Shown: piece by piece, positions 1 to 28,955 of the stretch
Layout of the letters: each line of letters begins with the position of its first letter
Numbering within the stretch: the stretch's first letter is position 1
Source: Phycisphaerales bacterium
GTDB taxonomy: Bacteria; Planctomycetota; Phycisphaerae; UBA1845
Direction: 5' to 3'
DNA: 33,455 nucleotides
NCBI GenBank assembly: GCA_020344555.1
Contig: CP070827.1
Coordinates: 3,624,274-3,657,728 of the forward strand
Translations under genes and position numbers: made by a program
Notes under the pieces: model-generated
What the model was told of the DNA's origin: nothing
What the model saw: only the letters and a program-made list of their open reading frames with translations
Databases searched by the model: none

Positions 1-527
1 TCGACGTCGTTCAGGATTCCGCCGCTGTAGCAGGTCATCCAGGAGTAGCTGCGCACGTCATAATCGATCGGGGACATCCAGCTCGCGATTTCAAAGTCGT
101 ACACGGTCTCCCCCGTGGTGTCTATGTGCATCACGAGATTGTCTCCGCTGGGCGACCCATGTCCCATCCACCACACGTAGAGGAAGTCGTTGGAGGTCAT
201 GATGCCGGCCAGCGTATTGAACACACTTTGAATGTTCGCCCGGTTGACCGGATAATCAGTTACGGGATAGGGCGACTGATAGCAGGCGTGACTGCTGTTG
301 AAATCGCCTCCCCAGCCGTAGAGAAAATAAATGTTGTCGTCGCTGTATCCCTCATCCAGCAGCGCCATGTACTGGAGATACGAGTTATACCAGAAACAGG
401 AATTCACAGGCGCATCGTCCGCAGTGGCCACCCCCGCGCTGATCACGACCGCGTAGTTGGCGCCCTGGGCCGGTGGGACCCACAACAACAGGCAAACCAC
501 GCTCACACAAGCAAATATTCTGTACAT
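1..527 (-). CDS. Secreted legumain/caspase-like cysteine peptidase, C-terminus cut by window edge
   Basis: Reading leftward from an ATG at 527, the frame is open for 175 codons to the window edge, so the C-terminus is missing. A strong ribosome site (AGGAGG, 6 bases upstream) fixes the start. Residues 1-22 form a signal peptide ending at AQG. The rest resembles the caspase-fold peptidases of clan CD, especially the legumain type (family C13): a hydrophobic strand running into WWMGHGSP puts a candidate catalytic His at residue 123, and SWMTCYSGG puts a candidate catalytic Cys at residue 166, with the usual separation of about 40 residues. A prodomain or C-terminal module cannot be judged. It lies 11 bases downstream of the propeller gene at 539-1336 on the same strand, so the two are probably co-transcribed. 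The peptidase assignment rests on the His/Cys motif pair and the order of segments; the substrate is unknown. Confidence 0.72.
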   Translation of the reverse strand, partial: MYRIFACVSVVCLLLWVPPAQGANYAVVISAGVATADDAPVNSCFWYNSYLQYMALLDEGYSDDNIYFLYGWGGDFNSSHACYQSPYPVTDYPVNRANIQSVFNTLAGIMTSNDFLYVWWMGHGSPSGDNLVMHIDTTGETVYDFEIASWMSPIDYDVRSYSWMTCYSGGILNDV

Positions 528-538
528 GACTGTTCCTC

Positions 539-1336
539 CTAGTTGGCTGCCAGCTTATAAATGGTCTGGGTTTCCCGATCCACACACCACAGGTCTTGGC
601 CATCCCAGGTCAGGCCGGTGGGGTAGAAACCGGGGGTATCGAACTGGGATACGTACAGGCCATCGGAAAGGTTGTACTTATACACGAGCCCCACCCGGTG
701 CCCCTCGTTGTCCGTGGCATTCCAGATGAACGTGCCGTCCGTCGCCAAGGCCCGGGGATAGCCCTTGGTGAAGAAAAATCGCTGCAGGGATCCGTCGTTC
801 GGATCTATTTCGTTCATCCTGCTCGACCAGCCGTCCACCGTGCCGCACCACAGGTGCTCACCGTCCCAAGTCAATCCGCCGAGCTCCGGCACACGCACAA
901 CCGCATGCGTAGCCGGCGCGTCGATCGCGGACAGCACAACCCCCGTGGCCCGATCCAGCTTGTACAGCTTGCGCGTGCCATTATCCGAGTGCCACAAGTG
1001 CGTCCCATCCCAGATCATGCCGCGCGGCTGAGAGCCTGGGGACTGGAAAGAAGAGAGCACGCTGCCATCGGAGGGGTCCAGCTTGTAGATCGTGTCCGTG
1101 CCATCATCTGCCAGCCACAGATGCGTGCCGTCCCAAGCAAGATCGCAAGGGCTCGACCCCGGCGACGAGAATTGCAGGATAATGTCGCCTGGCCTCAGTG
1201 ATTCATCGCTGGAAAAGACGGCGTACGGCATCGCCGCAGCCACGATAAACAGCACGCCTACGGCAAACGCCAGCTTCACCCGCGTCTTCCCGCCAAAGGG
1301 AAGCGCTCCATCAATCCTCAACTTCGTGAATCTCAT
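539..1336 (-). CDS. Secreted beta-propeller protein (WDGTHLW repeats)
   Basis: A 265-residue protein. The ATG at 1336 follows AAAGGAG at good spacing. Residues 19-42 are hydrophobic (signal peptide or N-terminal anchor). The remainder is five or six copies of a repeat of about 45 residues built on WDGTHLW, followed by a turn, YKLDPSDG and a strand. This matches NHL/SMP-30-like or glutamine-cyclotransferase-like beta-propellers, in which each repeat is one blade. No catalytic set for cyclotransferase is evident, so an extracellular binding or scaffold role is as likely as an enzymatic one. The gene precedes the caspase-like peptidase by 11 bases in the same direction. A sigma70-type promoter lies about 200 bases upstream (1543-1571). 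Confidence 0.75.
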   Translation of the reverse strand: MRFTKLRIDGALPFGGKTRVKLAFAVGVLFIVAAAMPYAVFSSDESLRPGDIILQFSSPGSSPCDLAWDGTHLWLADDGTDTIYKLDPSDGSVLSSFQSPGSQPRGMIWDGTHLWHSDNGTRKLYKLDRATGVVLSAIDAPATHAVVRVPELGGLTWDGEHLWCGTVDGWSSRMNEIDPNDGSLQRFFFTKGYPRALATDGTFIWNATDNEGHRVGLVYKYNLSDGLYVSQFDTPGFYPTGLTWDGQDLWCVDRETQTIYKLAAN

Positions 1337-2125
1337 TTCAGTATCTCCTTTTTACACCTTCTGTTGAGACATACGCTCCTCAACGATTGCACACTATGCC
1401 ATGTCTTCGCGGCCTGTCAGTCTGAGAAAACACAAGCTTTGAACTCGCAACGTGACCGTTCGCCGAAAACATCCGCAAAGCGAATGGTTTAGGCGGCAGG
1501 GACCAAGTCAGAACGCCTTGCCCCGCCCCGCTTCCAATTGACATTATACCCCAAGGCTGCACTTGACACAAGAGCGAAACGCCGACTCCGGACGGAAGCG
1601 TGTGGCCATTCATTGCGGCATCAGGCTGCGCTGCAGGTCCACTACTGGTTCCACTAGCCACGGTCACGTACCTCTTCGACCTCGACCGACAACTCGTCCT
1701 CTGACAATGCGAATAGACCGCCCTGAGAAAACATGGATTCCTCACGGCCTGGATTCCCCATTTGCTGGTCGTCGTCCGCGATACTACCACAGCCGGCCGT
1801 GCCGTGCAAGCAAAAAACAATTCCCCCGCACAAATGTCTCGATGGCCGTGTGTCCGCTGTGAGCATGAGGTTTTGCCGAGCTGCAGTTATCCAGGACGTC
1901 GTGAACGAGCTGCGTGTATCAGGTATGACTTGAGACCCCTTGTTTCACGCACAGGCAGACGTGAGCCGAGATTCACCATTTACCGTCTCCAGGGTCACGA
2001 ATCCATTCCCACGGCGCATCCGCTTTAGGCCGCAACACGCAGATGGTCAACGGACGTGTGTCTGGAGGTCCCCTCGGCCCGACCACATACTGCGTTCAAT
2101 TACCTGCGGACCCCTATAAGGTGCA
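1337..2125. other. Gene-poor spacer
   Basis: I find no convincing gene here. Open frames on both strands (for example 1380-1820 and 1654-1866, minus) lack recognisable motifs and good ribosome sites. Part of the frame ending at 1654 (a hydrophobic stretch, then TAGCGS and an acidic tail) could be a decayed lipoprotein, but this is weak. The only element I would call is the minus-strand promoter at 1543-1571. Confidence 0.5.
1543..1571 (-). promoter_or_regulatory. Sigma70-like promoter upstream of the propeller/peptidase operon
   Basis: On the minus strand TTGTGT (1566-1571) is followed after exactly 17 bases by a perfect TATAAT (1543-1548). It points toward 1336 and would leave a 5' untranslated region of about 200 bases. 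The -10 box is perfect and the -35 is weak. Confidence 0.45.
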
Positions 2126-2241
2126 ATTAGACTGTTTAGTCTAGACTATTCTGTTTAGACCAAACAGTCTAGACTGTTCTGTTTAGACCAAACAGTCTAG
2201 ACTGTTCTGTTTAGACTAAACAGTCTAGACTGGACAGTCTG
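2126..2241. repeat. 28-bp tandem palindrome array
   Basis: The perfect 10-bp palindrome AGTCTAGACT occurs four times at 2138, 2166, 2194 and 2222, exactly 28 bases apart. The three 18-base segments between them are near-identical and contain CTGTTTAGAC(C/T)AAACAG, itself a palindrome around a central base (perfect in the third). Partial units flank both sides (ATTAGACTGTTT on the left, GACAGTCTG on the right). It is AT-richer than its surroundings. It may be a regularly phased protein-binding array or a cruciform-forming element. It is not a CRISPR, because the spacers are not unique. Confidence 0.9.
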
Positions 2242-2580
2242 CGCTGGCTAGGGCCCCTTTCACGACTGCCCGGCCGACTGCGGATGCGGAGCGACTGCTT
2301 GACTGGGGTGTTCTTCGCTCGACGCGCTGACGCCCGGACCCCCATTCCAGATTCCCGATTTGGCTCACAGTACACACCATCTCACCCAAGCGGGCGACTG
2401 CCCCGGTGTCAGGCACGGGTTGGGGGACGGACTCCATATGACCCGTCACTGACTCGCCTTTGCAAGTCGAATACCCCCACTCATCGCGGGATGGGCCACC
2501 GACGCTCTGCACCAAAGCCGGCCCGGGCGGAGCCTTCACGCCCGCGGTAGCCGGGTAGGGCGGGCTTCACCCGGCGCGCC
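2242..2580. other. Spacer with a decayed copy of the dispersed repeat
   Basis: No gene is supported. About 2409-2505 resembles the 219-bp repeat that follows at 2581: both have a GGCACGGGTTGGGG-like start, a middle of similar length, then GTCGAA, an ATxCCC block, TCATCG and GGGxxACC. It is probably an older, eroded relative. Confidence 0.4.
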
Positions 2581-2799
2581 ATCGGCGGGCAGAGCCCGAT
2601 CCACTGATAACTGATCACTGAGAACTGATAACTACTCGCGCAGGTCCCGCATCCCTTTGCGAAGCACGGGGTGGGGAAGGAAGTCGACACGGCCGGTCGT
2701 TCGCCCGGGCCTGGAATGTCGAACATCCCGATTCATCGGGGGACTGGGCACCCAGCCATCCGGAGTACGTCACCCGGATCACAGTCCCTCGGAAGGCTG
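2581..2799. repeat. 219-bp dispersed repeat, copy 1
   Basis: This runs from ATCGGCGGGCAGAGCCCGAT to CCCTCGGAAGGCTG and matches 6698-6916 over its whole length, same orientation and same length, with scattered substitutions. It contains the block CTGATAACTGATCACTGAGA. Its right end, read on the minus strand, encodes QPSEGL followed by TGA, the same tail that closes the real gene at 6896. Copy 1 is therefore probably a duplicated 3' flank of that gene family. Confidence 0.88.
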
Positions 2800-2802
2800 A
2801 AC

Positions 2803-2958
2803 AAAGGGGACATTCTACTTTTTCGGGCTCTTTCGCGGTCGTCCTCGGAGGCCGAGAGAGCCCCGAGTGCCCCATCTTTTCTCCCCGGTCCAGGGGACCT
2901 CGCTGCAATAATGTCGGGGCGTGCCAAGAACGGGCGCAAAAAGTAGAATGTCCCCTTT
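2803..2958. repeat. Palindromic element with 21-bp perfect inverted ends
   Basis: Arms of 21 bases (2803-2823 and 2938-2958; the first 20 are AAAGGGGACATTCTACTTTT) are perfect reverse complements and enclose about 114 bases. Inside are further nested stems, including GGGCTCT (2825-2831) with AGAGCCC (2857-2863) and CTCGG with CCGAG between them. No ORF is enclosed. It starts three bases after the 219-bp repeat. The layout resembles a non-autonomous element of the kind mobilised by single-strand (Y1/REP) transposases. A short stem at 2972-2988 followed by a T-rich run lies just beyond. Confidence 0.8.
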
Positions 2959-3147
2959 TTCCCCTGCTTTCCCCTCGAGAAGCGAGGGTCTTTTCTGGCT
3001 GTCAATGAATAGCGCAATGTTGACAAAGACATGCGTAAGCAACGATTTCAGGTTACTCACAGTCCTCTGGGTCCATAACGTTTCGACCGACAAGACAGAG
3101 TAAGACGCGGCCAATCGTCCAACTGTAGCCCCAGGGAGACCGAGACC

Positions 3148-5834
3148 CTACCGCTCGGAACCGGACGGTCGTTTGAGCCGGAACGGTTGGGCACGCCTGT
3201 ACACTTCGAGCTGTGCTCGGATGTATCTGGCGCGGTCCGTGTCCCCGGCCAGGGATGCACTCTCGATCGCCTGCTCAGCCGTCTGGACTGCCACGATGAA
3301 TTGACCGGTCTCTGCGTAAGCGGCCGCCAGGATCTCCAGGCATCGCGCACGCTGATTCTGAGGAACCTCACAGGCACGCCGCGCGAGACGCACCGCCTCG
3401 TCGCCGTTTCGCAGTCCCGCGTGCGGGGCCGTGGCAAGGAGCCAGGCTAATTCCATGGCCATTCCGCCATGACCGGGCCAAGAATCGACCCCACGACGCA
3501 GCACGCTGACCGCGCGGGCAAAACGACCCAAACGCGCGTACGCCAGCCCGAGGTTGTGATAGACGGGTGGAGATTTGGGGGCCAACGCCACTGCCCGTTC
3601 GTAATGCTCAATCGCATCCACGAGCTGACCTTGCCCGTGCAACAACACGCCCAGATAGAAATGGGCGTCGGCAAGATCAGGATCAGCGTGAAGCGCCCGT
3701 CTATAGTGCTCAATCGCTCCACGGATGTCGCCCTTGTCCGTCAGGGAGCGTGCCAGGGCGTTGTGGGCACCCGCGTTATTGGGATCCGTGAGAAGCGCCT
3801 TGCGAAAGTAGTCGATCGCATGCTCAACCTGCTTGAGTCTCTGATAGACTGATCCAACCTGGGCAAGTGCTTCCGTCGACTGAGGATTGACGCGTAACGC
3901 TTCGTGGAACTCCGCCAGTGCGTCTTCTAGGCGCTGTTGTCCGATCCGGGCCAGCCCAAGGGCTAAGTGGATATCAGGATGGTTCGGGTCGATCCGTAAC
4001 ACCCGCCGAAAGTGGTCAACGGCCTCGCTGTGTCGCCCCAGGCGGATCAGAGTCCGACCCAAGCCGTAATGGGCGGAAGCGAGATCAGGGTTCATGCGGA
4101 TAACCTCGTGGTACACTCGCACCGCGCCATCCAACCGTTCCTGTTCGACATGGAGACCGGCGAGCTTCAGATACGCTTCCTGCAACGTAGGATTGAGCGA
4201 AATGGCTTTTCGGTACAGGGTGATCGCTTCGTCCAACTTACCCTGCCGTGCGAACCTGTCCCCCAGCAGTGCACAGCCCTCGGCATCCTCGGAAAGCACA
4301 TCCCCCGCCGCATCGATGAGCCGGTCGGACTCCTCGACCTTGCCGGCCCAACGAAGCACCTTGGCCAGCACGCCCCGTGCAATGGCGTGGTCGTGCTCGT
4401 CCAGTGACCTTTCAAGTTGCAGGGAAAGGTGTTCCGCGCGGGCGTCGTTCCACTCAGGCACTGGTCGTGCGACACCCGCATCGATCAGGTGCTCGAACAG
4501 CATCCGTCCGAGTGCTCGGTTCACGGGAATGGTGGAATGGACATGGTCGAGGAAGTACTCCTTGCCCAGGATGGCATGGCCATATTCTTCGCGACAGCGC
4601 CGCTTGAGGTGTGAGCGAAAGTCGACCAACTTTAGCCCATGCCGATGGGTCACATCGGCCAGAGCCTCATGCATCTGTGGCAGCATCCGCAGTGGACAGA
4701 TGTCCTCTTGCAGCGCACGCTCGAAGGCTCCTTCAGCGGCATCGCCCCCCCCCCCGGTGCGAACAACGCGCGCCCCAACTCGTAATGCAGTTGGGCGTAT
4801 CGATCGTCAATCGCCATGGCGTTCTCAAAGGCCTGCCTGGCGCGCCCATACTCGCCGGCGGACATGGCGTCGAGGGCATCGCGGAAGAAGCCTTCCCACG
4901 CACGGAGCTCGCTCCCGGTGAGGTCGTTACGATGTTCACTCTTAAAGGGTGAGAAATCCTTGAGATTGGCGGCTGGTTGTATGAAGATCACGTCCGCCCC
5001 GGCCGAGCGTGCAATCGCGACCATCCTACCCAGATTGAAACGGTAATGGTCAAGGATCTGTCTTCTCAAGCCTTCATCCCGATGGTAGAGATCCAAGCCC
5101 GCCGATGCATCAAGCAGCGTCTTGACCTCGCCCGTCAGGAGGTATTGCTCCCTGGCCGCGTCGCGTCGGCCGGGCGCAACTGATCGGATTCCTGACCTCA
5201 TCAGCGACGCAACGCGCGAACGATTGAAAAGGAGCTGCAGCTCCGTGACAACCGGATGCTCCTCGATGATGCCGCTGTAGGTGCGGCGTTCGAGGAACTC
5301 GTTGTGACCCGAGTAAATGATGAACAAATCGGGCTCGTACCGGGCCAACTCTTCCATCAGTCCCGCGACGCGATAGCTGGCGTAGGAGACGCCGCCACAG
5401 TTGATTACCTCCCAAGTTCTGCTCGGGTCGGCCGCGTTGAGAAAGAGCCGCAACCACCCGGCGAACGACGTCTTATCACGATACGGCCGCCCGTGCGTGG
5501 TCGATCCCCCCATACAGAAGATCCGATATGTGTGGCGATCTTTCTTCGCGAGGAAACTCTGTTGATTGAACAACAGGCGCTTGTTCTGCGCTGTTTGGTA
5601 GATCAGCCTGCCCAGTCGGTCGCGCTCCTTTGTGAAGAGCGGCACCTCTGACCGAAAGCCCACATACGGATCGTGAGTTGCAATCGCCGCTTTGACGCCG
5701 GTGAGAGCCAACAGCGCTTCCATAGCTGCCGGAACAGCCAAAAGGATAACCGCAGCAAACAACAACTTCTTACAACGCGACAGCCCCGAGGGCGCTGGCG
5801 ACGCGTTGTACTGAGTTTGTTTTCTTGAGTTCAT
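3148..5834 (-). CDS. SGNH/GDSL hydrolase with C-terminal TPR domain, split by a homopolymer frameshift
   Basis: Two overlapping frames form one gene. The upstream frame (from ATG 5834) has a hydrophobic anchor at about residues 24-47, then SGNH-hydrolase blocks: MGGSTTHG with candidate nucleophile Ser111, a Gly block in INCGGVSYAS, and YSGHNEF with Asn178. At about residue 360 it enters a G11 run (4745-4755) and then continues out of phase. The other frame picks up directly as DAAEGAFERAL and carries FLDHVHST, the DxxH block that supplies the catalytic Asp and His, followed by about nine TPR repeats to the TAG at 3148. One extra G (or two fewer) would give a continuous protein of about 895 residues. 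SGNH-TPR proteins of this layout are typical of planctomycetes, and the substrate (possibly an ester on surface glycans) is unknown. It could be a sequencing error, a phase-variable gene or a recent mutation. Confidence 0.85.
4745..4755. other. 11-base homopolymer (G on coding strand) at the frameshift
   Basis: Eleven consecutive C on the plus strand, preceded by CG and followed by GG. It is the longest homopolymer I see in the window and sits at the junction of the two frames of the SGNH-TPR gene, between the Ser/Asn blocks and the DxxH block. Confidence 0.9.
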
Positions 5835-6697: not shown

Positions 6698-6916
6698 ATC
6701 GGCGGGCAGAGCCCGATCCGCTGATAACTGATCACTGAGAACTGATGACTACTCGCACAGGTCCCCCATCCCGTTGCGAAGCACAGGGTGGGGAAGGAGC
6801 TCGACACGGCCGGTCGTTCGCCCGGGCCTGGAATGTCGAAGATCCCGATTCATCGGGGGACTAGGCACCCAGCCATCCGGAGTACGCCACCCGGATTATA
6901 GTCCCTCGGAAGGCTG
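6698..6916. repeat. 219-bp dispersed repeat, copy 2
   Basis: Full-length match to 2581-2799. Its last 21 bases are the 3' end and stop codon of the minus-strand gene at 6896-7495 (QPSEGL, then TAA), so the repeat boundary falls inside a coding sequence. Confidence 0.88.
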
Positions 6917-26537: not shown

Positions 26538-28955
26538 ATGTTCACGAGGAGCACACTTACGCAAGGTCGTGCCACGCGCAGCCCGGTCCTGCTCGCACTG
26601 GCCTCCGCAGCCCTGATGACGGCAGGAGCTGAAGTCGCGCTGGCCCAATGCGAAGCGGACAAGATCACCCCATCGAACGCACTGTTGGAAGACTACTTCG
26701 GTACCGCGGTCGCCCTCACTACCGACCAGACTGTGATCGGTGCCCCGAGCAACGTCCTACTCGGGGTTGTCTATATGTACCGCTTCGATGGGGCTCGGTG
26801 GGTCGAGGAAGCCAAGCTCACAGGGTCCGACGCCGTTCGATACGACGATTTCGGCGATTCCGTGGCCATCAGCGGTGAACTCGTGATAGCGGGATCACCT
26901 TCAGACGATCACGCGGCGACCAACGCGGGCTCGGCCTATGTATTTGGGCACAGTGGAACCGCGTGGATTGAAGAGGCCAAGCTCACGGCCTCCGACGCAG
27001 CCGCGTATGATTGCTTTGGCGATTCCGTGGGCATAAGTGGACACCTGGTGGTCGTGGGATCACCCTACGACAATCACTCCGGTCCGGACAAGGGATCGGC
27101 CTATGTATTTTCGCGCGAGGGCAGCACATGGGCGCAGGAAGCCAAGCTCACAGCCTCAGACGGAGCCGACCGGGACCACTTTGGCTATTCCGTGGGCATA
27201 AGTGGAGACCTCGTGGTCGTGGGGTCACCCGACGACAATTACGCAGACTACGAGAAGGGCTCCGCTTATGTCTTCAGGCGCGGCGGAACCGCGTGGGTGG
27301 AGGAAGCGAAGCTCACGGCGTTCGACGCAGCCGAGGATGATCACTTTGGCCGTTCCGTAGATATAACCGGAGACCTCGTGGTCGTCGGATCGCCCGGCCA
27401 CGATCACCCCGTGTCCGACGCCGGATCGGCCTACCTGTTCAGGCACGACGGCATCGAATGGGTGCAGGAGGGCAAGCTTACGGCATCCGACGCAGCCGAG
27501 GATGACCGCTTTGGCTTTTCCGTGGCGGTAAATGGAGACCTCGTGATCGTCGGATCACCTTCTGACGATTACTCAGGGTCCAACAGGGGATCGGCTTATC
27601 TGTTCAGGCGCGGTGACACTTCGTGGGCTCAGGTAGCCAAGCTAACCGCTCTCGATTCGCAGGAGGACGATTACTTCGGTCGTGCGGTCTCGATGACTAC
27701 CACTCACATCATCGTCGGTGCGCCGTATAGCGATAGCGCAGTCGTCGATTCGGGATCTGCCTATGTCTTCCAGGTCTCGACTGAACCGGACTGCAACAAC
27801 AACGAGCAGGCGGACGCCTGCGACATTCACCAGGGTTCCAGCGACGACTGCAATTCCAACGGCGTGCCGGACGAGTGTGAACTATGCCGCGATGTCGAGG
27901 GCACACCGTGCGATGAAGGCCAGTTCTGCAAGTTCTGCGCAGATGAATGCGACATCCCTCACAATACAGGAGCCTGCACGACCTTCCCCCAGACATGCCC
28001 GGAAGATTGGATTCCTGTCTGCGGTTGTGACGGCGTTACATATAACAATGAATGCGAGGCTGATCAGGGAGGCATCTCCCTGGCTTCAATCGATCTGTGT
28101 AGTATGGGTTGTTGCCTGCCTGGGGGCGCCTGTTTGACTACCACAGCGTCCTCGTGCCTTGAGCAGGGGGGCGTTACAGTTCCCGCCTGTCTCGGTGACA
28201 ACGACGGTGACGGTGAGGACGATGGGTGCCTCTGCTCCTTCCGTACGGCTCCACCCAGGCCTGATACGCTGGCGCTTCCGGGAAACCCCATCAACCAGAA
28301 GATGCGCTACCTCTCCTTTAGCGCGGGTGACGTGGGGCGGGTCCAGGCGGTCCAGGTCACGTTCAATGACCTCCCACCGCCTTATGACACTTGGAACGGC
28401 TTAGAGATGTGGGTTGGCCAGCCAGAGACGTTTTGTGAGGGCGCGGGGCAGGTTAGTCCTCCGTGTGGCCCCCGGATTCCAGCCGACTCCTTCTGGGCCG
28501 CGACGTTGCAGTGCGAGCCGTACTTCACAGACTGGAGCAGGTTTGGCGTCGTCAATGTATTCCACGAAGGGACGATTCCCAGCGCAACCTATGCTTTGCG
28601 GGCCATTGACTCCACCTGCGCCGTGGTGGAGTCCAACTTGTCCGACCCCTTAATCATGACCACGAGCCGGTGGGGCGACGTGGTAAGGAACTGTGTGACG
28701 TGTCCGTGCGGCCCGCCTGACGGGGTCGTCGGGATACCCACCGACGTGACGGCTGTGCTCGACAAGTTCAAGAACCTGGAACCGCCGTACCTACCGTGCT
28801 ACCCACCGCTCAAGGTGAGGACCGAGCACGACTGGGAGACCCCGAACCAGCGGATCGATATCTCGGATGTCACGTTCTGCCTGGATGCCTTCCGCGGGGA
28901 ACCCTACCCGCCGCCTGCGTTCTACGATCCGAGTCCGCGGCCCTGTTCGCCGTAG
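26538..28955 (+). CDS. Mosaic secreted protein: FG-GAP propeller, Kazal domain, dockerin-like tail (unit B)
   Basis: 805 residues; ATG at 26538 behind GGAGGA is preferred over one at 26487. Signal peptide to about residue 37 (ALAQC). Seven FG-GAP repeats of about 55 residues (residues about 40-413; period about 165 bp) form an integrin-alpha-like propeller, each with DxFGxSV and GSAYVF. A Cys/Asn linker (DCNSNGVPDECE) follows. A Kazal-type inhibitor core at about 486-515 has the spaced Cys of CPEDWIPVCGCDGVTYNNEC. A second Cys-rich linker (CCLPGGACLTTTASSC) comes next, then the same 140-residue module and dockerin-like tail as units A and C, ending RPCSP. The N-terminus is unrelated to A and C, so the shared C-terminus was joined to a new ectodomain. 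Kazal domains inhibit serine proteases; whether this one does is unknown. Confidence 0.87.
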   Translation: MFTRSTLTQGRATRSPVLLALASAALMTAGAEVALAQCEADKITPSNALLEDYFGTAVALTTDQTVIGAPSNVLLGVVYMYRFDGARWVEEAKLTGSDAVRYDDFGDSVAISGELVIAGSPSDDHAATNAGSAYVFGHSGTAWIEEAKLTASDAAAYDCFGDSVGISGHLVVVGSPYDNHSGPDKGSAYVFSREGSTWAQEAKLTASDGADRDHFGYSVGISGDLVVVGSPDDNYADYEKGSAYVFRRGGTAWVEEAKLTAFDAAEDDHFGRSVDITGDLVVVGSPGHDHPVSDAGSAYLFRHDGIEWVQEGKLTASDAAEDDRFGFSVAVNGDLVIVGSPSDDYSGSNRGSAYLFRRGDTSWAQVAKLTALDSQEDDYFGRAVSMTTTHIIVGAPYSDSAVVDSGSAYVFQVSTEPDCNNNEQADACDIHQGSSDDCNSNGVPDECELCRDVEGTPCDEGQFCKFCADECDIPHNTGACTTFPQTCPEDWIPVCGCDGVTYNNECEADQGGISLASIDLCSMGCCLPGGACLTTTASSCLEQGGVTVPACLGDNDGDGEDDGCLCSFRTAPPRPDTLALPGNPINQKMRYLSFSAGDVGRVQAVQVTFNDLPPPYDTWNGLEMWVGQPETFCEGAGQVSPPCGPRIPADSFWAATLQCEPYFTDWSRFGVVNVFHEGTIPSATYALRAIDSTCAVVESNLSDPLIMTTSRWGDVVRNCVTCPCGPPDGVVGIPTDVTAVLDKFKNLEPPYLPCYPPLKVRTEHDWETPNQRIDISDVTFCLDAFRGEPYPPPAFYDPSPRPCSP

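Follow-up and report, generated by a model that had tools for sequence, protein, structure and literature searches.

Architecture of the Array

What is a row of short palindromes for, when it lies in bacterial DNA that encodes no evident protein? The question arises at positions 2126–2241 of a 33,455-nucleotide stretch (the window) from a Phycisphaerae MAG. A preliminary description of this locus reported four AGTCTAGACT palindromes at a strict 28-base spacing, alternating with a second palindrome in a stretch without genes, and proposed cooperative binding of a dimeric protein, or else a recombination or replication site. The surroundings are as described, with no convincing ORF between window positions 1336 and 3148. 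AGTCTAGACT occurs exactly four times in the window (2138–2147, 2166–2175, 2194–2203, and 2222–2231), each start being 28 bp from the next; with one mismatch permitted, 0.29 occurrences are expected across the whole window, and four were reached by none of 100 shuffles.

What recurs every 28 bp is a higher-order unit made up of two dyads. Repeat and dyad scans resolve the 116 bp into eight dyads with all seven neighbor spacings at 14 bp, the consensus being an inverted heptamer pair, TAGACTG-NN-CAGTCTA (consensus 20-mer, TCTAGACTRWWYAGTCTAGA), whose outer TCTAGA is shared by adjacent dyads. Every second dyad is weaker, with CTGTTTA in place of CAGTCTA, and this gives rise to the 28-bp period. 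The second palindrome does lie between the AGTCTAGACT copies, but it repeats the same dyad in weaker form, and the fundamental phase is therefore 14 bp. Both periods are reported by Tandem Repeats Finder over 2128–2231 (period 28, 3.4 copies, 97% match; period 14, 7.4 copies). The spacing of nearly three helical turns is incidental: each step of the array is in fact 14 bp, or about 1.33 turns.

A Family of Arrays in One Genome

Arrays of this kind were found at 14 loci of the MAG (5.25 Mb, 71% complete), all of them between genes in the ORF map of this analysis, with two to eight dyads each and 63 in total. GyrA relatives belong to the Phycisphaerae. Neighboring dyads are exactly 14 bp apart in 46 of 49 cases. 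Genome-wide, exact AGTCTAGACT occurs 26 times per strand, as opposed to twice for the reversed control pattern, and is clustered at the 14 loci. Wide scatter without fixed spacing had been named beforehand as the mark of a simple repeat; the copies are indeed scattered, but as arrays whose inner spacing is almost always 14 bp. Several arrays have common flanks through whole-module duplication (L008/L013/L015, L007/L018, and L009/L011/L017). Beyond these modules the flanks are not alike, and most arrays have none in common; this is therefore not a transposon copy family. Contigs are joined by 100-N runs in the fetched stretches; the window appears to be a single contig, with one such run ending at its start. 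At L007, L012, and L018 the joins lie directly at the arrays, and array lengths there may therefore be truncated.

Dyad Constraint and Promoter Geometry

The repeated dyads, fixed spacing, and conserved half-sites are those expected of an operator array. The inner C and G of the dyad (C7 and G14) are invariant in 63/63 sites while other columns vary. Departures from the consensus fall on one half-site in 122 cases and on both in five, and two-sided changes that preserve pairing number four, against 9.9 expected under independence of the sides. The one-sided departures therefore point to a site for a dimeric protein as opposed to an RNA hairpin.

Many of the arrays also hold a fixed position relative to promoter-like elements, as operators would. 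A sigma70-like −35/−10 pair stands 8–10 bp from one array end in eight of the 14 arrays: at 8/25 testable ends, TTG starts 8–10 bp from the outermost dyad center and a −10-like hexamer follows at 16–18 bp, a pattern found at 1.5% of random nearby positions. Clear examples are L008 (TTGAAT-N18-TATTCT), L015 (TTGCAT-N17-TATTCT), and L011 (TTGCAG-N17-CATAAT). The naive binomial P is 2e-9; because some of these arrays are homologous, the eight cases amount to about five independent groups, for which P is estimated at about 1e-5, and these values are optimistic since the 8–10 bp distance was picked after the L008, L013, and L015 cases had been seen. A general search for promoters up to 60 bp from the array ends gave a mixed outcome, and the fixed-distance test was used instead. 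No promoter at the canonical distance was found at six of the 14 arrays.

In the window, positions 2099–2126 may contain the promoter of the array-side gene. The candidate −35, TTGCAC (2121–2126, minus strand), is 9 bp from the outermost dyad center, a placement seen at seven other arrays, and a 16-bp spacer separates it from a weakly matching candidate −10, GGTAAT (2099–2104, minus strand). This putative promoter is directed left, toward a minus-strand gene (539–1336) that is the nearest downstream and whose start codon lies 790 bp from the array. The gene encodes a 265-aa protein whose N-terminus bears a hydrophobic (export-like) segment and which also contains a DUF6923 repeat.

Genes Beside the Arrays

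When neighbor genes were taken within about 200–800 bp, most arrays proved to stand before genes whose products are exported or lie in the membrane, several of these products being of IPTL-CTERM types, with export judged by eye from N-termini without a signal-peptide predictor. These neighbors include an IPTL-CTERM protein with a C39-like peptidase domain (L005), a Kazal-like protein (L009), a lipoprotein-like protein with a TIG domain (L010), a 72-aa Cys-rich peptide with an N-terminal hydrophobic segment together with a dockerin-like protein (L011), and a beta-helix protein for which the promoter direction is uncertain (L016). In L008, L013, L015, and L018 the neighbors are repeated modules, in which a stand-alone LNT_N-like membrane protein is followed by an IPTL-CTERM-type protein. 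No clear target gene was seen at L012 and L017.

Members of the LNT_N-like family (L015:4015-4728, minus strand; alignment A1) have an Lnt-like fold with no catalytic domain seen, their C-termini carry an R-x-P-P (‘PRAPP’) motif that is invariant, and several copies per genome adjoin IPTL-CTERM-type proteins.

Distribution in Relatives

No array of even two units, exact or with one mismatch, was found in the GTDB contigs scanned, in 39 relatives, or in 113 other genomes of the order. The motif was found elsewhere only once generalized to TAGRCTNNNNAGYCTA, which occurs 20 times here, 14 times in G019, a member of another genus, and five times in total in the other 49 genomes of the family. In G019 the motif is diverged and the sites are mostly single 20-bp dyads (TGTAGGCTATATAGCCTACA). 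Target genes are common to the two genera: two of the sites in G019 precede LNT-like genes (C251 and C529), and the gene 188 bp downstream of another is a homologue, 61% identical, of the L010 gene that bears an array here. Among 40 relatives, the L010 gene has a close match only in this genome and G019. Divergent from that homologue, across the common dyad, is a frame (L105:529-1134, minus strand) that by eye resembles an ECF sigma factor, with a kinase-like frame after it.

Within the genus, two genomes are without arrays. One of these, G002, is 97% complete, and at its orthologue of the L013 locus neither the array nor the adjacent LuxR-type gene is present, a degenerate stretch being all that is kept. 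Window positions 1–3147 match only dispersed repeats in G002, and thus no orthologous empty site can be read for the window array. A single dyad-like CAGTCTAGACTG lies upstream of an LNT gene in G001. An exact site in G011:C102 was discounted, as it is located within a reading frame, in the part that putatively encodes a signal peptide.

Alternatives to an Operator

Several other readings of these arrays can be envisaged. If transcribed, an array could form a long hairpin serving as a terminator, attenuator, or stability element, and the window array does fold much more stably than shuffled sequences (−82 kcal/mol, z −9.9). Such strong folding is, however, expected of any tandem palindrome; in many cases the promoter is downstream of the array, no T tract adjoins the array, and no Rfam match was obtained. 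The hairpin or terminator was rejected for want of compensatory stem changes, and an RNA role of any of these kinds is considered very improbable. The arrays might instead be a functionless, species-specific minisatellite or mobile repeat, spread through duplication of flanking DNA. The absence of the pattern from the relatives and contigs scanned, the duplicated modules around several arrays, and the clear amplification of the 28-bp unit in the window are all consistent with this. A repeat of that sort would hardly account for an invariant dyad core amid variable columns, a fixed distance to promoter elements, the many arrays that have no common flanks, or a diverged motif preceding homologous genes in another genus, and we regard it as unlikely.

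Dispersed dyad arrays in strict phase also bring to mind a site for chromosome organization or partition, parS-like or bound by another nucleoid protein. The arrays are promoter-proximal, though, their target genes are biased toward exported proteins, and the skew is unchanged at the array, and this explanation is given very little weight. Nor is there support for the replication or recombination site once suggested. An origin would be a unique locus at which the GC skew inverts; there are at least 14 dispersed copies and no inversion at the array, and the array neighbors examined included no identified integrase, replication-initiator, or partition gene. Cooperative binding by a dimeric protein, the remaining proposal of the preliminary description, would best account for the invariant C7/G14, the one-sided departures, and the fixed promoter-side position.

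The Candidate Regulator

If the arrays are operators, which protein binds them? At L013, the gene for a 113-aa GerE-HTH protein (5061–5399, minus strand) reads toward the array from about 40 bp upstream, and the predicted structure of the protein matches the GerE and NarL DNA-binding fold. The dyad TAGACTG-NN-CAGTCTA has the 7-2-7, or about 20-bp, form of LuxR/GerE-type operators. In four other genera (G011, G012, G015, and G022), a homologue precedes LNT-like genes and is on the same strand as they are. G002, at 97% completeness, has neither this gene nor any array. On these grounds we infer, with moderate confidence, that the regulator is this small LuxR-type protein. It adjoins only one of the 14 arrays. 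The genome-wide survey of regulators covered GerE proteins. Genomes with LuxR homologues are mostly without the exact motif, and the link between the two across other genera was not significant against dinucleotide shuffles (Fisher P 0.57, 13 regions); sites in the LuxR-LNT intergenic regions of L066 (TAGGCTGTTCAGTTTA) and L069 (TAGACCACACTGTCTA) are only suggestive. No homologue was detected in G019 (63% complete), though motif sites are present there. Given this non-significant link and the missing G019 homologue, we hold it very probable that the array is a multi-dimer operator and put the chance that the L013 protein binds it at about even.

The arrays could also be read as operators of another dimeric regulator, of the ribbon-helix-helix (MetJ/omega) or TetR/GntR type, with the LuxR-type neighbor being coincidental. 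MetJ boxes and omega heptads characteristically consist of tandem contiguous short dyads or heptads, which suit a cooperative lining-up of dimers. The window-type arrays are likewise contiguous short tandem dyads, and both the solitary LuxR-type neighbor and the situation in G019 would fit such a regulator. The array unit, in contrast, is 14 bp with its own sequence, no ribbon-helix-helix or TetR/GntR-type gene adjoins an array among the neighbors examined, and the pairing of LuxR and LNT genes is kept from genus to genus. A binder of this kind is a lesser but real prospect.

In its geometry the array resembles NarL 7-2-7 sites and lux boxes. NarL-type sites are 7-2-7 dyads, with inverted heptamers 2 bp apart bound by a GerE-fold dimer (PMC4549865). 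The array dyads and the GerE HTH of the candidate regulator conform to this, whereas the packing of up to eight dyads at 14 bp with overlapping ends, the heptamer sequence, and a stand-alone HTH without a receiver domain do not. The lux box is normally centered at −42.5 (PMC7585371). Here too a dyad of about 20 bp adjoins the −35, and the G019 form is a single such dyad, but the arrays are multi-site, their dyad center is estimated near −44, and the candidate regulator has no autoinducer domain, unlike LuxR-type quorum-sensing activators. The protein also has a weak HTH match to EpsA (TIGR03020), an XrtB/PEP-CTERM-associated LuxR-family regulator, both being near sorting-signal (CTERM) genes; with a score of 28.5 against a cutoff of 170, it is not a member. 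No described system with such dyad packing was found in a small, open-access-only literature search.

A Model for Array Function

Taken together, the sequence patterns are best explained by a multi-site operator for a homodimeric helix-turn-helix regulator, most likely the L013 LuxR-type protein, a model that as a whole is somewhat more probable than not. Each TAGACTG-NN-CAGTCTA dyad would be bound by one homodimer, and successive dimers, 14 bp apart and rotated by about 120 degrees, would wind round the helix, with every third dimer on the same face (42 bp, about four turns). The promoter-nearest dimer, centered 8–10 bp upstream of the −35 and about −44 from the expected start, would occupy a class-II activator position and could contact RNA polymerase, while the upstream dimers would add occupancy or cooperativity. 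The regulon would consist mainly of exported and membrane proteins, including the LNT_N-like and IPTL-CTERM modules. The sequence itself shows the array family, its phasing, the constraint on the dyad, the nearness to promoter-like elements, and target genes in common with a second genus. That a protein binds at all, which one it is, and that it activates are what we infer here; it is possible that the array-bound regulator acts as a repressor instead.

More tentatively, a stand-alone LuxR-HTH regulator may polymerize on self-overlapping 14-bp operators, its dimers forming a helical row, and may turn on a Phycisphaerae regulon made up of exported proteins, CTERM-sorted ones among them. Operator evolution would then have moved between single 20-bp dyads, as in G019, and the multi-dyad arrays seen here. 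Such arrays would make the regulation of cell-surface protein genes readable as a code in a group of planctomycetes familiar chiefly through metagenomes. They would also be a natural case of operator growth, starting with a single dyad and reaching up to eight that overlap, with a bearing on the evolution of cooperative promoters.

Other Repeats in the Window

The window contains further repeats. A short repeat at 2602–2633 (CACTGAGAACTGAT) also has a 14-bp period, its sequence being unrelated to the array. Positions 2803–2823 and 2938–2958 form a perfect 21-nt inverted repeat (AAAGGGGACATTCTACTTTTT) of an element with copies in G002, and the two copies of a 219-bp repeat, at 2581–2799 and 6698–6916, share 94% identity, with part of the repeat recurring in L016. 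Between 24914 and 30349, genes and blocks are duplicated at 80–82% identity; the region includes a coding tandem repeat of 165 bp at 26799–27609.
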